NCBI GenBank assembly: GCA_016218045.1
Contig: JACRFB010000013.1
Span: forward strand, 62,001 to 126,000
Reading direction: 5' to 3'
DNA: 64,000 bases
Source: Ignavibacteriota bacterium
Lineage (GTDB): Bacteria; Bacteroidota; Ignavibacteria; SZUA-365
The translations under genes and the position numbers were made by a program. Under the pieces are notes generated by a model. That model was given only the letters and a program-made list of their open reading frames with translations, did no database searches and had not been told where the DNA came from. Numbering within the stretch: position 1 is the stretch's first letter; each line of letters starts with the position of its first letter. Positions 7,100 through 37,884 of the stretch are shown in pieces.

Positions 7100-7702
7100 A
7101 TGAAAACTCCTTCGAAGAAAATACCCGCCGCCGCCGATCCGATTCCGGATTGCCGCCGTATGGGCGACGAGGAGCTGTTCGGACGTCTGTCGGCCGAAAA
7201 AAGTGAAGCCGACCGTGCCTTCGCCGAATTGTACGCCCGGCATTCGGCGCGCGTCTGGGCGTATTGCCGCTGTGTGTTCGGGGATGCGGTACGCGCCGAG
7301 GATGTGTTTCAGGACACCTTTGCACGTTTTTTCGAGCGTGGACAACAGAAGACGCATGTGCGCAACGTGCCCGCATATCTGCTGATTACCGCGCGCAACC
7401 TCTGCCTGAACGCCAAGCGCGACACCAAACCCAGCATTTCCATCGAGGATCTGCAACTGACGGTTCACGACCGGCCTTTCGAGAACCGGGAACTGCTCGA
7501 ACTCGTCAATACCGCCATGGCCTTGCTGCCCGCCGAGCAACGCGAGGCGTTTTTCTTGCGGGAGTACGAGGATTTGTCCTACGACGACATCGGCGGCATT
7601 CTCTCCTGTACGGCGCTGTCTGCGCGTATCCGCGTGTCGCGGGCGCGAAAGAAACTGCGCGAAATTCTCCACCCGTATGTCGTCGAATTGACGCAACCAT
7701 AA
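7100..7702 (+). CDS. ECF-type RNA polymerase sigma factor (200 aa)
   Basis: Extracytoplasmic-function sigma factor that directs RNA polymerase to a small regulon. Region 2 reads AFAELYARHSARVWAYCRCV followed by AEDVFQDTFARFF, which is the -10-recognition core. Region 4 reads LLPAEQREAFFLREYEDLSY, DDIGGIL and ARIRVSRARKKLREIL, the -35-binding helix-turn-helix. I chose ATG 7100 (MKTPSKK); ATGs at 7055 and 7064 are in frame but add only an atypical tail. It is followed after 24 bp by a probable membrane-spanning anti-sigma gene, the usual ECF arrangement, so its activity is probably controlled by sequestration. The conserved region-2 and region-4 motifs are all recognisable. Confidence 0.9.
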   Translation: MKTPSKKIPAAADPIPDCRRMGDEELFGRLSAEKSEADRAFAELYARHSARVWAYCRCVFGDAVRAEDVFQDTFARFFERGQQKTHVRNVPAYLLITARNLCLNAKRDTKPSISIEDLQLTVHDRPFENRELLELVNTAMALLPAEQREAFFLREYEDLSYDDIGGILSCTALSARIRVSRARKKLREILHPYVVELTQP

Positions 7703-7726
7703 AGCCCCCGAGCGCGAGGCATCGTC

Positions 7727-9196
7727 ATGGAACATCAGGATTTTGACCAATATCAACGGCTCGTGGACGCCGCCCTCGACGGCGAACTCGACGCCGCGCG
7801 CGAGTCGCAGCTCTACGAGCAGCTCGCGGCGGATGCGGCGCTGCGCGATACTCTCCGCGGCGCGCAGGCGATCCGCAGCGCAACACGCGCGTACTCGTCC
7901 GCCATGACTCCGCCCGCCGATCTCGGCGCCGCGCTCTTCGCGCGCCTCGGCATCGATACTGCCGCCACGGTCACCACAAAAAAGGGACACAAGAATCCGA
8001 TACTTGGCCGCATGGGACTTCTCCCCGCTATCGGCCTCGTGCTTCTGCTTTCCGGCGGCGTTTTTCTGTATTTCTTCTCCTCGTCCAATTCCTCGAATCC
8101 GGCAGCCCCTTCCGTCTCAACGCACACGGTTCCCGCAGTCCCCGCTCCCGCACGTACGGTACCTGCTGCACCGGCTCCTGCTTCTACACGCATGGATCAC
8201 GAAGGTTCACTCGCGGAAAGAGCACCAGCGGAATCCGCAGGACGTGTGCAGTCCGCCGATACACGCACATTCTCCGCACAACATACGGCGCCCGCATCGG
8301 CACCCGCTCCGCGCGAAAAATCGCAAGCATCCGACAACACGTCCGCGACCGTTCGCGACGCACGCGCACAGGAAACAAGCGGTGCTGTGGGTACAGGCAT
8401 ACATTCCACATCCGTCACACACGCCGCGACGCGGTCCGGCACCGGCGGCGATTCGGGCAGCGGCGCGCTCGGAACGCACGACAATGCAGCGCCTCTTGTT
8501 CCACCCGACAAAGCCGCGGCAGCACAGGCGAAGATGGAGGAAACCCTTCCGGCATCCGCGTCGACGACACCAGCCCTGACTGCGCAGGACATTCCCGCGC
8601 ATCAATCGCTCGTACCGATCGGCACCTCGCCCGTGATTCAGGGCCGCGGGACCGACTTTATTCGCGACCTCCGTGCATCGTATCCTCTGCGCAGCGGACT
8701 CGCCACGCACCGCCTCCTTCTGCGGCTTCGCGGCTACGGCCTTTCTCCCTCCCCCTCGACCGACATCGGCCCTCGTTCCTCCCCGTTTGTGAACAACATG
8801 GCTGCGTCGTTGATGTACAACCTCGGGAGTGAACACGCCTTGGGCCTCGAAGGCGGACAGGAGGCGTACCCGCAGGAATACGAGGGCACAGAGAACGGAC
8901 GCACTGTTCGATATCAGCAGAATCTTCTGACGCCGTGGATCGGTGTCGCCTACCGGTACCGTCCGCTCTGGGCACGCTCCGAGGCGGGGGTTTCAGGCAG
9001 CATCGCCACACATGCGGGAATCACGCGCGAGTATTGGCCGCAACTGCGTTTGGCCGTGGGGCTGCAATATGCGGTCATCCCGCCGCTCTCCCTTGAACTA
9101 GGAATCGAAGGATTGCTCGTCGCATATCCGTTTCAGGACCGCTGGTTCACCACAAGAAAAATCGGTGTGACGTATGGCCTGCTCGTTGCGTTCTGA
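7727..9196 (+). CDS. Probable dual-membrane-spanning anti-sigma factor (489 aa)
   Basis: Partner of the preceding sigma factor. Residues 1-80 form a cytoplasmic helical domain resembling anti-sigma N-termini (LVDAALDGELDAARESQLYE) but without the zinc-finger Cys/His. A single transmembrane helix follows at about 96-117. Next is a long Ala/Pro/Thr/Ser-rich linker of about 180 residues that could cross the periplasm. From about residue 304 to the end is a beta-barrel-like domain with alternating strands and a C-terminal Phe, as in BAM substrates. This order matches the Dma-type dual-membrane anti-sigma factors described in Bacteroides, where a C-terminal barrel sits in the outer membrane. The assignment rests on architecture, not close similarity. 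An inner-membrane sensor with a soluble beta domain is the alternative. Confidence 0.6.
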   Translation: MEHQDFDQYQRLVDAALDGELDAARESQLYEQLAADAALRDTLRGAQAIRSATRAYSSAMTPPADLGAALFARLGIDTAATVTTKKGHKNPILGRMGLLPAIGLVLLLSGGVFLYFFSSSNSSNPAAPSVSTHTVPAVPAPARTVPAAPAPASTRMDHEGSLAERAPAESAGRVQSADTRTFSAQHTAPASAPAPREKSQASDNTSATVRDARAQETSGAVGTGIHSTSVTHAATRSGTGGDSGSGALGTHDNAAPLVPPDKAAAAQAKMEETLPASASTTPALTAQDIPAHQSLVPIGTSPVIQGRGTDFIRDLRASYPLRSGLATHRLLLRLRGYGLSPSPSTDIGPRSSPFVNNMAASLMYNLGSEHALGLEGGQEAYPQEYEGTENGRTVRYQQNLLTPWIGVAYRYRPLWARSEAGVSGSIATHAGITREYWPQLRLAVGLQYAVIPPLSLELGIEGLLVAYPFQDRWFTTRKIGVTYGLLVAF

Positions 9197-9809
9197 CGCT
9201 GCTCCGCGGCGGGCCGCCGCGCAACGAGTCGGTGTGTTGCTGCTCGGACTCTGCGCTCTCGGCGTGGTCATGTCCTGCGTGTCACCTCTCGAACCCGATA
9301 CTCCCCGCCGGCGCACGGTACTCGGCGATACAACGAATCCCGTCGACACGAAGCCGAAATGGATCACCACCGATGTTGATTTCAGCGCCACCGAGAATCA
9401 AATGACCTGGGAGCCCGTCCTCGATACGGTGCGTGCCGATGTTGATACGAGCGGCGGCCGCACCCTTCTTCGATTCCACGTCACAGCCCATCTTGCGCCA
9501 CCCTACTATCCTGTAAAAGCTTTGTACGCGGTGACGGTGGTCGATTCGCTCGCCATCGACAACACCACACGCGATCTCACAACCGATCCGGCATCAGGCA
9601 GCGGCGCCTCGTTTCAGTTTGCCAAAGGCAAGGACTCACTTTCCGTCACACCGACCGAACGTATTGTGACGAGTAGCCCGAATATCGGCGTCACCAATCT
9701 CGTGCTTCGAAGGAGTGGACCGGAACGTATCGTCACCGGTGTGCTCACCGCGACATTCATGCAGGGAACACGCACCTATTTCCAGGCCACGCTCCGTTTC
9801 ACCTGGTAA
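9174..9809 (+). CDS. Lipoprotein of unknown function (211 aa)
   Basis: Not a recognised family. The N-terminus has a signal peptide whose hydrophobic core (VGVLLLGLCALGVVMS) ends at Cys35, giving a lipoprotein. The mature part is beta-rich with no catalytic motif. It overlaps the preceding anti-sigma gene by 23 bp, so the two are translationally coupled, and it may be the third member of the sigma/anti-sigma operon. A role as an envelope ligand or as a target of the same signalling system is possible but unsupported. A GTG about 57 bp further in could also serve as start while keeping the signal peptide. Confidence 0.65.
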   Translation: MACSLRSDAAPRRAAAQRVGVLLLGLCALGVVMSCVSPLEPDTPRRRTVLGDTTNPVDTKPKWITTDVDFSATENQMTWEPVLDTVRADVDTSGGRTLLRFHVTAHLAPPYYPVKALYAVTVVDSLAIDNTTRDLTTDPASGSGASFQFAKGKDSLSVTPTERIVTSSPNIGVTNLVLRRSGPERIVTGVLTATFMQGTRTYFQATLRFTW

Positions 9810-9890: not shown

Positions 9891-11768
9891 ATGACCATGT
9901 TTCGACTCTGGACCGGAGCACTTCTGCTGGCGATCGTTGTCGCTTGCGGCAGTGCCCACACTCTCAACGAAGCGCAGCGCGGTGGCGTGCGTTTTACATC
10001 GACTCCCCCATCAACGGCACAGATCGGTATTGAATACGTGTATGATGCCAATGCCGAAGGACCTCCATCAGACGTTGTTCTCTACAGGTCCATTCTCCTT
10101 CCATCGGGCGCGACGCTCGATTCGTTGACCGGCGAAGTTCGCTGGACACCCGCGGCAAACGGTAAGGTCACATTCAAGATTGCTGCGTATCTGCAATCGA
10201 ATCCCACCATCACAGCGCAGCAGTCGTGGTACGTCATGGTGGGGCAGGACAGCGTGTCGAATCCCGGCAAATGTGCCATCATCACCGGCACGGTGTTCGA
10301 TCAGAACAACACGCCGATGTACGGCACGGTGTACGTGAAACGGATCGATCTCCCGCCCGCGCTCACCTTCAGCGGACAGTTGAAAAACGGTTCTTTCGCC
10401 GTGGCGGTATCCGACAGCGGCATGTACATCGTCAAGGCCTACGGCGCCGGCTTCACCACGGAATGGTATCTGGATGCTGCAGATGAGGCATCGGCTACTG
10501 CCGTCACCGTGCGCTGCAACGATTCCACATCGGTGAACATGATCGTCGCGTCCCAGACAACCGCAACCAAAACCATCACCGGAACCGTGGTCACCGCAGG
10601 TACGAATCAGCCCATCGCCACCGCAAAGGTGATTGCGATGAACACGAACACGCGGCAGTCGTACACCGCGCGCATCGACGCCAACGGCACGTACACGCTC
10701 GTGCTTCCCGAGAACGAAACCTATCTGCTGCAGGCCGTGGATCTTGCAGGCGGGCATGAGTCGCGCTACTATGACAATACACCCGACCCGAACCTTGCCA
10801 CGTTGATCACGTTGACCGTGGATCGCAGCGGCATCGATTTCCTGCTTCCCACAACAAGGACGTATAACGGCAGCATCAGCGGTTCCGTGGTCGACAGCGC
10901 TTCAGCGCCGCTCATCGCGATGCTCAAACTGTATCGGATCGAAACAGTGGCCCAGTCGCCGATACTCGTCAAAGCGGGCGGCTTCATCACCGACAGCACC
11001 GGATCGAGCATCGGTAATTTTGAATTCCTCAACCTGAAGCCCGGCGAGTATGTGATCTACGCGATGCCGTACACACGCGAACATGTGCCGGGCTACTACA
11101 AGGCGCAGGATGTCGCGGTTCCCGATTGGACGCAGGCCACACGCATCAGCGTCGATTCGGCGAGCACCATCAGCGGCATCGTCATCTCGCTGCAGAAACG
11201 CTGGGGCCTCACCGGCGGCAAGATTGTTCGTGGCACCATCCGCGCGAAGATCGGCGGCTTTGCACTCGGCGGCACGCCGCTGCCCGAAGCCACCGCGATT
11301 CTCTACGATGCCTCGGGCCGTGTCAGTGATTATGCGGTGTCGGATGCCAACGGATTGTACGAGATGAACGAAGCGCCCACCGGTACTGTCACGCTGTTCT
11401 TCCACGCTCCGGGATACGTGTCGCAGAGCAATACCTTCCAGATCAGCGCGGGCTCTGGTCCCGTCGAACGCTCGGTCGAAGTAACACCGTCGTCACCGAC
11501 CTCGGTCGACCGGCCCGTTGCGACCGATCTCACGTTCACCGTCTATCCGAATCCCGCGACCGATCGTCTCGTGCTGTCGGTCTCGGCGCCGGCGCAGATC
11601 AACCGCAACATCACGATCTACTCGCTGCTCGGCGCGCGCCTCTCGACGCATACTCTCACAGCGGGAGCAACGCATCTCACCGTGCCGCTCGGCTCCCTCT
11701 CACCCGGCACCTACATCGCCGCCTTCGACAACAACACGCAGGCCCTGCGCTTCCGCGTCACGCGCTGA
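9891..11768 (+). CDS. T9SS-secreted protein with carboxypeptidase-regulatory-like repeats (625 aa)
   Basis: Exported protein with an N-terminal signal peptide (LWTGALLLAIVVACGS, possibly a lipobox). It has an Ig-like putative domain (about residues 30-120, GATLDSLTGEVRWTPAANG). Several carboxypeptidase-regulatory-like beta-sandwich repeats follow (ITGTVFDQNNTPMYGTVYV, ITGTVVTAGTNQPIATAKVI, ISGSVVDSASAPLIAMLKL, and ATAILYDASGRVSDYAVSD). The C-terminal type A sorting domain (FTVYPNPATDRLVLSVSAPA, then IYSLLGARL, then PGTYIAAF) directs secretion by the type IX system and anchoring at the cell surface. No enzyme domain is seen, so an adhesive or structural surface role is likely. GGAG lies eight bases before the ATG. 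A strong terminator follows the gene. Confidence 0.8.
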   Translation: MTMFRLWTGALLLAIVVACGSAHTLNEAQRGGVRFTSTPPSTAQIGIEYVYDANAEGPPSDVVLYRSILLPSGATLDSLTGEVRWTPAANGKVTFKIAAYLQSNPTITAQQSWYVMVGQDSVSNPGKCAIITGTVFDQNNTPMYGTVYVKRIDLPPALTFSGQLKNGSFAVAVSDSGMYIVKAYGAGFTTEWYLDAADEASATAVTVRCNDSTSVNMIVASQTTATKTITGTVVTAGTNQPIATAKVIAMNTNTRQSYTARIDANGTYTLVLPENETYLLQAVDLAGGHESRYYDNTPDPNLATLITLTVDRSGIDFLLPTTRTYNGSISGSVVDSASAPLIAMLKLYRIETVAQSPILVKAGGFITDSTGSSIGNFEFLNLKPGEYVIYAMPYTREHVPGYYKAQDVAVPDWTQATRISVDSASTISGIVISLQKRWGLTGGKIVRGTIRAKIGGFALGGTPLPEATAILYDASGRVSDYAVSDANGLYEMNEAPTGTVTLFFHAPGYVSQSNTFQISAGSGPVERSVEVTPSSPTSVDRPVATDLTFTVYPNPATDRLVLSVSAPAQINRNITIYSLLGARLSTHTLTAGATHLTVPLGSLSPGTYIAAFDNNTQALRFRVTR

Positions 11769-34031: not shown

Positions 34032-35975
34032 ATGCAACGAATCATCCATCCCCTGACGCCTCTCGCGGCATTGCTCTTCGCAGCATTATTCTTTGTCTCG
34101 TGTCAATCACCTACCGAAACGCCCCCCGCGGAACAGCGCGCCGTCACAGTGCAAGTGCAGAACGACCGCACCGAGCCGCTCGCGCTGGTCCCAGTGGAGA
34201 TGTACGACGGAACACGCGGTGAAATACCCGGGGCTCTCCTCGACCGCGCCGTCACCGATCAGAGCGGACGCGTCCTGTTCCGCCACACCATCCCCACGAC
34301 AGGCGCCAACATGCTCTTTGTTGTGGGCGACGAGAACACGGGAAAAATCCGCGTATCGGCCAACCTGCTCTGCCGCGACACTGTGCTTGTCATCCCCTTT
34401 GTGTCGCAGGATCTTCCGTGTACGGGAATATTCAACCAGCTTCTCTCGCTCAAGGCCTGTTCACCAAACCGCAGCGGCGCCACCTTCTCGGATTCGTCGT
34501 CCATGCTCTTCCGATCGAGCTGTGTCGAGGCGCTGTCGATCTCGTATACGACCGCAACGCCCATCCCTGGCGTGCGGATGATCGTGCTCGACAAGGATGG
34601 CAGGGAGGTGACCGACAATCCCTTCCTCCTGCCGCCACGCGGCTCGTTCAGCGTTCGCGCAATTGGCACACCGGGAGACAGTGGGTCGTTCACGCAGACC
34701 ACGATATTCCATGCGACTGGCCCCAACAACGCCGACATCACCCTCAATGTGCGCGTGGATCTCATCGGCGACAACTGCAACAAGTGCGACTGCCCGAAGG
34801 ATACCACGATACTCAATTTCGGCCTCGTGCAGGTGGCACCAGAAAAACAGACCAAAGTGCAGCAAGTGGCTCTTGCTGTGAACACCTGCCAGATCACGCG
34901 CAGGGATGTTTTGGAAAAGGGACCGTCGAACACAGTTGTGTTCGCCCTGCGCTCCACGCTCATCCCCGAGATCCGTCCGCAGGAGCGGCAGTTCCTCAGC
35001 GTGGAATTCATGCCGAAGGAACAGCGCGTGTACCGCGACACGATTATCATCCGGCATACCTACCAGGAGGAAAACAAGACGTGTCTCACGCGGATCATTT
35101 TGACGGGCGAGGGGTGCGGACCGATCTGCCAGGTGGAGCCGGGCGACAGTCTCTTCCCTGCGAGCGGACGGTACACACACCGCCTTGGTCTCGAGCGGGC
35201 GCGCGCCTATGAGGGCAGCATTGGAGAAATCTGTCTGCGCAATACCGGGAAATGCGGTACGCTGCGCGTGACGGGCGCATTCGACAATCCCCCGCCGGGA
35301 TTTTCCGTGGCGGGTGGCGCACTTGACATCACCCCGGGCAGCGTGCGCTGTTTCTCCATCCGATTCGATGCGCGCGACGAGGTCGTGTGGCCGAACGGGC
35401 ACGGCCAACCGGCGAGAATCGACCACAACGCCGAATTCCTCGTCAACTCGTGCAACGGCATCAGCCGTGTGAATGTGACCGTGCGTGTCGACACGATTCC
35501 CATCCTCTTCTCGCGCTGTGTGTACCAGTGGAATCAGAACGGTATGTACGGCTACAACTTCACTCCGGTCGAGGGCAAGGGTGAGGATCGTTACGATCCC
35601 GGCTTCCCGAACACACAGCTCTCCGACATCGTGGTGGATTCGGTTATGGTGGCGCTCGGCCAGGCCGGCGTTCATGTGAAAAGCGGATGGAAGCCGATCA
35701 AATCCGGAGTGACGGAGGCGCAGTTCAACTTCGACGACATGTCGAAGGCGCGAAACGGATGGACGCGTGCGCAGTATCTATCCATCACAGACGAGACCGG
35801 ATTCACTCTCACTCCCGTGAACACGACGTTTGTTCTCCGATCCGTGTACTCCATCCGCGTCGAGCGCGGCGGAGTCGTCACGTACGCGTGCATCCGCGTT
35901 CGCGAGATCAGCGAGGACGGCGATGGAAAGCGGAAGATCTGCATCGACGTACTCTATCCCATGATCAACGAGTGA
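34032..35975 (+). CDS. Large lipoprotein of unknown function (647 aa)
   Basis: Lipoprotein with signal core LAALLFAALFFVSC, giving a lipid-modified Cys24. The mature part opens with a carboxypeptidase-regulatory-like beta-sandwich (VTVQVQNDRTEPLALVPVEM) and continues as several Ig-like/ASH-type domains with recurrent phrases (LNFGLVQVAPEKQTKVQQVA, FGLVQ and RVTGAFDNPPPGFSV). Cysteine pairs such as CNKCDC and CGPIC are unusual and may form disulfides. The ribosome site GAGGAG lies eight bases upstream, overlapping the preceding stop codon region, so the gene is operonic with the barrel gene. No enzymatic motif is visible. Confidence 0.65.
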   Translation: MQRIIHPLTPLAALLFAALFFVSCQSPTETPPAEQRAVTVQVQNDRTEPLALVPVEMYDGTRGEIPGALLDRAVTDQSGRVLFRHTIPTTGANMLFVVGDENTGKIRVSANLLCRDTVLVIPFVSQDLPCTGIFNQLLSLKACSPNRSGATFSDSSSMLFRSSCVEALSISYTTATPIPGVRMIVLDKDGREVTDNPFLLPPRGSFSVRAIGTPGDSGSFTQTTIFHATGPNNADITLNVRVDLIGDNCNKCDCPKDTTILNFGLVQVAPEKQTKVQQVALAVNTCQITRRDVLEKGPSNTVVFALRSTLIPEIRPQERQFLSVEFMPKEQRVYRDTIIIRHTYQEENKTCLTRIILTGEGCGPICQVEPGDSLFPASGRYTHRLGLERARAYEGSIGEICLRNTGKCGTLRVTGAFDNPPPGFSVAGGALDITPGSVRCFSIRFDARDEVVWPNGHGQPARIDHNAEFLVNSCNGISRVNVTVRVDTIPILFSRCVYQWNQNGMYGYNFTPVEGKGEDRYDPGFPNTQLSDIVVDSVMVALGQAGVHVKSGWKPIKSGVTEAQFNFDDMSKARNGWTRAQYLSITDETGFTLTPVNTTFVLRSVYSIRVERGGVVTYACIRVREISEDGDGKRKICIDVLYPMINE

Positions 35976-35982
35976 GGCCGAC

Positions 35983-37884
35983 ATGAAAACACATCTTCTC
36001 CCCTTCGTGACGGCTTCGGCGCTGTGTCTGCTCCTCGTATCATGCGCGTCGACCGAAGAAACCGTGGTGCCGCCAAGACCCGCGGCCGACAATCCATCCT
36101 TCACCGCGGTGACCAACTGCCGCGTACTCAACTCCGAAGAAGACGATTTCGCCCCCTGGGTGTCGCGTGATGGAAAACACGCCATTGTCACTTCGAACAG
36201 GCGGCTCGCTGCCGCCGATCGGAAGTTCAGCCCGGAATTCCTCTACGGCGAAAAACTGCTTGTGACCGAACGGACAGCCGCTGGAACCGGCGAGAACACG
36301 GGGCTCGGTCTGCATCGCACGGAACGTTGGACCCCACTCTCGCCTCTGCAGGAAGGCGCATTTAGTGTGGTCAACACGGGTACCGCCATGTTCGACGATG
36401 GCACGGTCACGTATTTCAGCACAACGTACGCTGCCGGAGGCCGCGGCGGCGCGGATATCTGGCTGCACGGTCCGTCAGGTGCTACGCCTGTCGACGGGAT
36501 CAATTCATCTTGGTGGGACGCACAGCCGGCGTTGTCGCCGGATGGAATGATGCTGGTATTTGCGTCCGACCGCGTCTCGCGCGACCCCAGTGTCAGCGAT
36601 ACGGGACGCCGCACGCCACATTTGTACTACGCGATAAAATCAGGCGAGGGCGCCTGGTCCGATCCGCAGCCGCTTCCCGCGCCGGTCAATTCGAGCAGCG
36701 CGGAGATCTCGCCCTGGTTCGACAGCGACGGCACGTTGTACTTCGCCACCGCGCGACGCGGGTCCTTCGACATCGCGACGACGCGGCTCCTCTCCGACAA
36801 CATCTGGTCCGAGCCCTCTTTCTTCAAGGAGCCAATCAACACCGCCGCTAACGATTGTTTTGCGGTGCTCTCGCCCGACCGTACGGAGATGTTGTTCGCG
36901 AGTGATCGCGAAGGCGGATTGGGAGGGTACGACATCTGGTCCGCCGACAGGCCCACCTGCGTACGCTTCGAGGGCGCGGTGCGACTCGTGTCCATCGGGA
37001 AGAAGGGCGACACCATCGTCGCACCGGGATCGAACATCCGCATGACGGTGAAGGACGATGCGACCGGGCGTGTGCTCGATGTCGGAAGCACCGATGCGAG
37101 GGGTGTGTACACAGCATCGAGCTGCCTCCGGCCGAAAACGGCGGTAACCGTCTCGAGCGAGAGCATGAACTGTTTTACCACCGGCAATGACCTGCATCTC
37201 AAAGTCCCGGTACCGACCGGCACCGAGGACATGCTTCGGGGAACAATCACTCTCGTCCGTCAACCGCTCCCCGTTTTCGAACCGAAGAACGATTCGATCC
37301 CGTTTTTCGTCACCGGCTACTGGTATCCGAACACAACGACGAATCTCGATCGCATGTTGAGTGAGTGGCCCAAGGGCCGCTTGCGAAATGCCAACTACAT
37401 CGAACCCGACAGTTTCAATTACCGTCAGTCGGCCGTTGTCGTCGAACAGTGGTTCGAGAAGCTATACGGTGATATCGAGAGCATGCTTCTTCCCATGCTG
37501 GACACGTGTTACGCCAACAATGACACACTCGTGCTGCACGTATACGGATATGTCGATCCACGCGGGCTGGCTTGGGGACTCTATGAAGATGAGGCTACTG
37601 CCCGCACCGCGGAAATGACAATTGAACCCGGAACCGTCATGCAGCAGCAAGACGGAAACAAGAAACTCGCAAACCTCCGCGGGTATTACTCCATGATGAT
37701 GATCGACCGCGATATGATGAGCCGATCGTCTCGATACACCGATCTGCGCAAGCAGAACCGCGTGCAGCTCCGCGCACACGGCGAGTACATCGGCTTCGGG
37801 AAGGATGGGACGCAGGGTGGACCGCTCGACGATCCGTACAAGCGCAAATTCCTCGTGCGAGTCACCCTTCACGAGGGGAAGTAG
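35983..37884 (+). CDS. PorE-like propeller/OmpA-type lipoprotein (633 aa)
   Basis: Lipoprotein (LLLVSC, Cys21). The first 330 residues contain PD40 beta-propeller blades (DDFAPWVSRDGKHAIVTSN, AQPALSPDGMMLVFASDR, ISPWFDSDGTLYFATARR, AVLSPDRTEMLFASDREG, GGYDIWSADRP). A carboxypeptidase-regulatory-like domain follows at about 340-400 (RMTVKDDATGRVLDVGSTDA). The C-terminal about 200 residues have an OmpA-like layout (LVLHVYGYVDPRG, NRVQLRAHGEYIGFG), though the canonical peptidoglycan-binding residues are diverged. Propeller plus CRD plus OmpA-like is the domain order of PorE, the peptidoglycan-anchoring T9SS component, but without its N-terminal TPR. The gene lies 7 bp after the preceding lipoprotein gene. 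The PorE relationship is an inference from architecture. Confidence 0.65.
   Translation: MKTHLLPFVTASALCLLLVSCASTEETVVPPRPAADNPSFTAVTNCRVLNSEEDDFAPWVSRDGKHAIVTSNRRLAAADRKFSPEFLYGEKLLVTERTAAGTGENTGLGLHRTERWTPLSPLQEGAFSVVNTGTAMFDDGTVTYFSTTYAAGGRGGADIWLHGPSGATPVDGINSSWWDAQPALSPDGMMLVFASDRVSRDPSVSDTGRRTPHLYYAIKSGEGAWSDPQPLPAPVNSSSAEISPWFDSDGTLYFATARRGSFDIATTRLLSDNIWSEPSFFKEPINTAANDCFAVLSPDRTEMLFASDREGGLGGYDIWSADRPTCVRFEGAVRLVSIGKKGDTIVAPGSNIRMTVKDDATGRVLDVGSTDARGVYTASSCLRPKTAVTVSSESMNCFTTGNDLHLKVPVPTGTEDMLRGTITLVRQPLPVFEPKNDSIPFFVTGYWYPNTTTNLDRMLSEWPKGRLRNANYIEPDSFNYRQSAVVVEQWFEKLYGDIESMLLPMLDTCYANNDTLVLHVYGYVDPRGLAWGLYEDEATARTAEMTIEPGTVMQQQDGNKKLANLRGYYSMMMIDRDMMSRSSRYTDLRKQNRVQLRAHGEYIGFGKDGTQGGPLDDPYKRKFLVRVTLHEGK

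Follow-up and report, generated by a model that had tools for sequence, protein, structure and literature searches.

A sigma/anti-sigma locus of Ignavibacteriota with a predicted dual-membrane anti-sigma factor and a tagged lipoprotein

Introduction

Control of outer-membrane vesiculation is a trait of the Dma family of Bacteroides. Dma anti-sigma factors have been described only from Bacteroidota, where they are tied to ECF21 (PMC13088901), and a pair with a barrel-bearing anti-sigma factor in Phocaeicola is induced by an envelope-damaging toxin and envelope stress (PMC9308784). No paper on ECF and anti-sigma factors in Ignavibacteria, a group which the NCBI taxonomy treats as the phylum Ignavibacteriota, came up in our literature search. 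Here, we analysed a locus within a 64,000-nucleotide stretch of an Ignavibacteriota bacterium (GCA_016218045.1, contig JACRFB010000013.1, positions 62,001 to 126,000), which will be referred to as the window. The source genome comprises 4.77 Mb in 72 contigs; in the genome collection used, it shares the phylum of the Bacteroidales genomes taken for comparison and differs from them in class. A preliminary description made from the sequence had read the locus as an ECF sigma factor with a Dma-type anti-sigma partner outside Bacteroides.

Results

The Three-Gene Locus

The features of the locus are as follows, with positions in the window.

7100..7702, + strand: ECF sigma factor, 200 aa, with Sigma70_r2 and Sigma70_r4_2 above the Pfam cut-off; in the clade of barrel-anti-sigma-linked sigma factors
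7727..9196, + strand: dual-membrane-type anti-sigma factor, 489 aa (AlphaFold2 model; conservation in family and class genomes)
7727..7951, + strand: cytoplasmic head (residues 1-75); four helices and profile matches place it with the RseA/RsiW-like class I anti-sigma domains
8012..8080, + strand: transmembrane helix, residues ~96-118 (hydropathy 2.21 at residue 98; modelled helix 105-118)
8081..8701, + strand: Pro/Ala/Ser/Thr-rich disordered linker, predicted periplasmic, residues ~119-325 (composition, low pLDDT)
8702..9193, + strand: eight-stranded outer-membrane-type barrel, residues 326-489 (AlphaFold2 model, fold matches)
9170..9193, + strand: C-terminal beta-signal TYGLLVAF, matching the consensus polar-x-G-x-x-phi-x-phi
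9174..9809, + strand: tagged lipoprotein, third component, 211 aa (lipobox VMS-C35; 59 or more of 75 loci have a lipoprotein gene downstream)
9276..9308, + strand: lipoprotein N-terminal tag CVSPLEPDTPR, starting at the lipidated Cys (locus-specific occurrence)
9891..11768, + strand: possible fourth gene of uncertain membership, a CarboxypepD_reg protein with a T9SS sorting tail (PF18962, 7.2e-10) and a lipobox-like N-terminus

The order of an ECF sigma gene followed by an anti-sigma gene, as given in the preliminary description, was borne out: the sigma gene product matched Sigma70_r2 (3.2e-11) and Sigma70_r4_2 (9.1e-13). The anti-sigma and lipoprotein genes share the 23 bp that had been noticed (9174-9196). 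A gene with a T9SS tail was often found in fourth place, of the CarboxypepD_reg type in the window (9891-11768) and of the VWA type in the group B loci (L044:2736-3962; L035:7097-8320), where the lipoprotein was a VWA protein as well.

The Anti-Sigma Protein

An AlphaFold2 model of the 489-aa anti-sigma factor was built on a 33-row alignment of homologues and showed pLDDT values above 90 over most of the head and the barrel. The helical head with one transmembrane helix that had been read from the sequence reappeared in the model as four helices (residues 3-17, 23-35, 37-59 and 64-73) and a helix at the hydrophobic stretch. Searches of the PDB with the head profile returned anti-sigma domains as all of the top four matches (RseA 1or7, RsiW, MucA and another RseA) with E values of 0.0088-0.16, which are weak but specific. 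Scans of the individual family members added RseA_N matches in 10 out of 33 anti-sigma proteins and NCBIfam antisigma matches down to 8.8e-08. The helix number agrees with the four helices that define the ASDI, a definition which also includes a bundle of the first three and was compared here by count. The PDB and RseA_N matches together with the four helices identify the head, by sequence and helix count, as a class I anti-sigma domain, a type that binds sigma2 and sigma4, and it is predicted to bind the sigma factor here.

Behind the transmembrane helix, approximately 200 residues form a linker, most of them with pLDDT around or below 50; Pro, Ala, Ser and Thr account for 56% of residues 119-305. 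The low-complexity linker of the preliminary description is thus present and disordered, and its length is nearer 200-210 residues than the 180 originally given.

In the C-terminal part, the model places eight strands within residues 330-488; block means of pLDDT there are mostly 89-96. This part is therefore a barrel, as originally suspected, and not a soluble sandwich, and it ends on Phe within TYGLLVAF. Fold comparison (Foldseek, VIA-align) matched it to NspA, OmpA, PagL and OprF at Z 13-15, so that model and fold matches together describe an up-and-down, eight-stranded OmpA/NspA-like barrel. Soluble avidin-type barrels were matched in the same comparison at Z ~10, below the outer-membrane barrels, which was read as shared strand count. 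The beta-signal consensus was present in 59 of 75 family members versus 1 of 456 control ORFs. No Pfam barrel family was matched by any of the 33 anti-sigma members, and hydrophobic alternation along the barrel strands did not separate them from the head helices. Judged by its fold and C-terminus, the barrel is of the outer-membrane type and presumably sits in the outer membrane.

Distribution of the Locus

The anti-sigma protein was matched in all 12 genomes of the family, and the barrel architecture was detected in 49 out of 149 genomes of the class, representing 26 of 80 genera; the genomes compared were mostly metagenome assemblies. When 296 genomes were drawn from the phylum, all matches fell inside the same class. 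The window's genome itself holds four such anti-sigma paralogues. Among 75 loci read in detail, 72 had the sigma gene directly upstream, and the remaining three lie at contig ends. In at least 59, the anti-sigma gene was followed by a lipoprotein gene of the same orientation, lipoproteins being called by a simple lipobox rule. The layout conserved across the family, with the sigma gene upstream in 72 of 75 loci, argues against a chance architecture, and the recurrence of the lipoprotein gene agrees with its suggested place as a third component. An initial scan of named genomes with the single anti-sigma protein as query gave no match, nor did a scan of viral contigs. One match in Acidobacteria (L106) was rejected as spurious, since sigma gene, head and barrel were all missing at that locus.

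At the fourth paralogue found in the window's genome (L036:6676-7278; G000:C72), the lipoprotein gene is missing and a gene for a rhomboid protease (PF01694, 7.7e-23) follows. Relatives of its barrel clade carry a lipoprotein serpin at that downstream position.

Relation to the Dma Proteins of Bacteroides

For comparison, 21 Bacteroidales Dma proteins were recovered in this analysis. NigD as bait led to Dma1 loci (L185, L186), whereas DUF4943 as bait for Dma2 returned only an unrelated context and the ECF family NF058625 returned other sigma/anti-sigma pairs, which had no fused barrel. Profile searches in both directions between the window-type anti-sigma proteins and Dma did not detect direct homology. 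Likewise, hhalign against the 21 Dma proteins detected none, with probabilities of 4% for whole proteins, 4-16% for the barrels and 0.2% for the heads. OMP_b-brl_2 was matched by 19 of the 21 Dma barrels versus none of 33 window-type members; conversely, RseA_N was matched in window-type heads and not in Dma heads. The sigma factors of the two groups fell into separate clades (supports 87 and 100).

It is possible, if somewhat doubtful, that the window-type proteins do belong to the Dma family of Bacteroides and have diverged too far to be recognized by sequence, an ancestry compatible with the mechanism favoured below. The domain order is the same, the sigma gene lies upstream, and a lipoprotein gene is often found downstream of the Bacteroidales Dma genes too. 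In addition, a few single-sequence HMM matches of barrels to Dma were obtained, marginal at ~1e-4 in a small set, and the two sigma clades may still be sisters (support 38). Against such an ancestry stand the hhalign values for heads and barrels and the assignment of both parts to different Pfam families. The term "Dma-type" of the preliminary description thus fits as the name of an architecture, which does occur in another class; as a family assignment it is not supported by homology to the 21 Dma proteins. Since the parts look unrelated in sequence to those of Dma, the dual-membrane design may have arisen twice.

Two further arrangements were observed in the comparison genomes. Some Bacteroidia (L177-L181) possess an ECF sigma gene, an anti-sigma gene (270-372 aa) and then a gene for a separate protein of 274-376 aa, which resembles a small outer-membrane barrel and is perhaps a split counterpart. 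A 582-aa Bacteroidales barrel protein (L204:1117-2865), for which a separate upstream sigma gene was not found, is possibly Dma3-like.

The Lipoprotein and Its Tag

Directly after the lipidated Cys, the lipoproteins of many loci carry an 11-residue tag, C-x-S-P-[LT]-[DE]-x-[DE]-T-P-R, which reads CVSPLEPDTPR in the window and CDSPLDVETPR, CASPTDPDTPR or CTSPLDSDTPR elsewhere. A DNA pattern for the tag gave 31 matches in 12 genomes versus 5 for the reversed pattern. Seventeen of the 31 lay in a lipoprotein signal-peptide context, every one of them immediately downstream of a barrel anti-sigma gene; the remaining matches were not lipoproteins (30 of the 31 were inspected). Under a strict rule, the tag was present in 25 of 54 associated lipoproteins and in none of 16 other lipoproteins of the window's genome, the 16 being all that the lipobox rule found in a 457-kb sample of it.

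The tag is retained while the rest of the protein changes. In ten diverged lipoproteins, of which the others are 16-26% identical to that of the window, the only invariant columns were Met1 and the C, S, P, L and R of the tag. It is borne by unrelated bodies, namely VWA, Ig-like, a 390-residue type and the window's own type, which AlphaFold modelled as beta-rich at low confidence (pLDDT 48). Barrels that group with that of the window (support 90) have partner lipoproteins whose body is unlike the window's, yet whose tag is almost identical. Mapped onto the barrel tree, presence of the tag required 7 changes compared to a mean of 19.4 after shuffling, and none of 500 shuffles was as low.

Outside the nearer families, the tag weakens across the class. 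Two paralogous barrel clades of these genomes do not have it and are accompanied by SPPDD-type lipoproteins and by serpin lipoproteins (PF00079, 3e-114), respectively. Because these clades and the paralogue at L036 do without the tag, docking by it would not be universal.

Elsewhere in the window, two large adjacent lipoproteins (34032-35975 and 35983-37884) have loosely tag-like N-termini, CQSPTETPPAEQR and CASTEETVVPPR; the first showed weak Ig-like matches.

Discussion

The explanation that accounts best for the locus, and which we consider moderately probable, is a sigma/anti-sigma switch that bridges the two membranes and has a lipoprotein as its partner. Its RseA-like head would tie the sigma factor to the inner membrane, which the chain would cross once before spanning the periplasm with its long disordered linker; its own eight-stranded barrel would anchor it in the outer membrane. 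We propose that the lipoprotein, after delivery to the outer membrane, docks onto the barrel via its post-Cys tag, near the membrane surface, as an eight-stranded barrel is probably too narrow for threading. Its variable body would then sense or act at the envelope or the cell surface. Failure of barrel assembly or of lipoprotein docking, or perturbation by a ligand, could open the linker to a site-1 protease, and cleavage by an RseP-type M50 protease would be the second cut that frees the sigma factor. An M50 protease is encoded in the genome (1.9e-59). The Phocaeicola pair (PMC9308784), sensing of the outer membrane by RcsF and outer-membrane proteins (PMC4942254) and outer-membrane transducers that protect an anti-sigma factor from proteolysis (PMC11637429) provide precedents for such a mechanism.

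In a bolder version, put forward tentatively, the dual-membrane design had a second origin, among Ignavibacteria-like bacteria, from an RseA-type head and an unrelated barrel, and the barrel acts as a general docking port reading the post-Cys tag, so that VWA, Ig-like and other lipoprotein sensors could be swapped onto one sigma switch.

The barrel might instead be the input itself. Upon failure of BAM or of the outer membrane, its unfolded C-terminus (YGxxVxF) would activate a DegS/AlgW-like PDZ protease in cis; the protein would then combine an RseA with the very peptide that induces it, and the lipoprotein would be only a regulon member or assembly factor. An RseA-type head and an OMP-type C-terminus are indeed united in one chain, and AlgW/DegS-type proteases are activated by OMP C-termini (PMC8545111). 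We regard this reading as rather unlikely, for it leaves unexplained why 11 residues are kept in the neighbouring lipoprotein while the bodies change. That the tag serves surface export or sorting and has nothing to do with the barrel, on a lipoprotein that is simply a co-transcribed regulon product, appears improbable: its position just behind the lipidated Cys is indeed that of sorting signals, and a loose resemblance is seen in some other lipoproteins of the window (CQSPTETPPAEQR at 34032), but a general signal should mark lipoproteins other than those of the barrel anti-sigma loci, where all 17 lipoprotein-context matches in the 12 genomes were located, and presence of the tag follows the barrel tree.

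A widespread separate set with another head and another barrel, in a group ranked by NCBI as a phylum of its own, suggests that signalling the state of the outer membrane through a physical tether between the membranes is a recurrent solution. What the barrel may sense can be approached through the lipoprotein tag, whose 11 residues are directly testable by mutation. Many Bacteroidales Dma genes are likewise followed by a lipoprotein gene, which suggests that this question of sensing applies to them too.

Among known systems, Dma shares with the window-type loci the order of sigma and anti-sigma gene and that of a sigma-binding head, one transmembrane helix, a long disordered tether and a C-terminal barrel, and in both a lipoprotein gene is often adjacent. 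The window-type proteins differ in their RseA/RsiW-like head, in a barrel outside the Pfam barrel families and in a separate sigma clade; furthermore, Dma loci encode NigD or DUF4943 lipoproteins, whereas window-type lipoproteins carry one N-terminal tag on unrelated bodies. The class I anti-sigma factors RseA, RsiW and MucA are alike in the helical head, the single transmembrane helix and the upstream ECF sigma gene and differ in their periplasmic part, in place of which the window protein carries an outer-membrane-type barrel on a long linker. In E. coli, the N-terminal part of the lipoprotein RcsF reports the state of the outer membrane together with OmpA and other barrels (PMC4942254); its output, however, is a phosphorelay, whereas the window barrel is part of the anti-sigma factor and its contact with the lipoprotein is a prediction. 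Cell-surface signalling of the Fec/Fox type likewise conveys a signal from the outer membrane to an ECF sigma factor (PMC11637429), but it does so with receptor and anti-sigma factor as separate proteins, whereas the window operon contains no TonB-dependent receptor.
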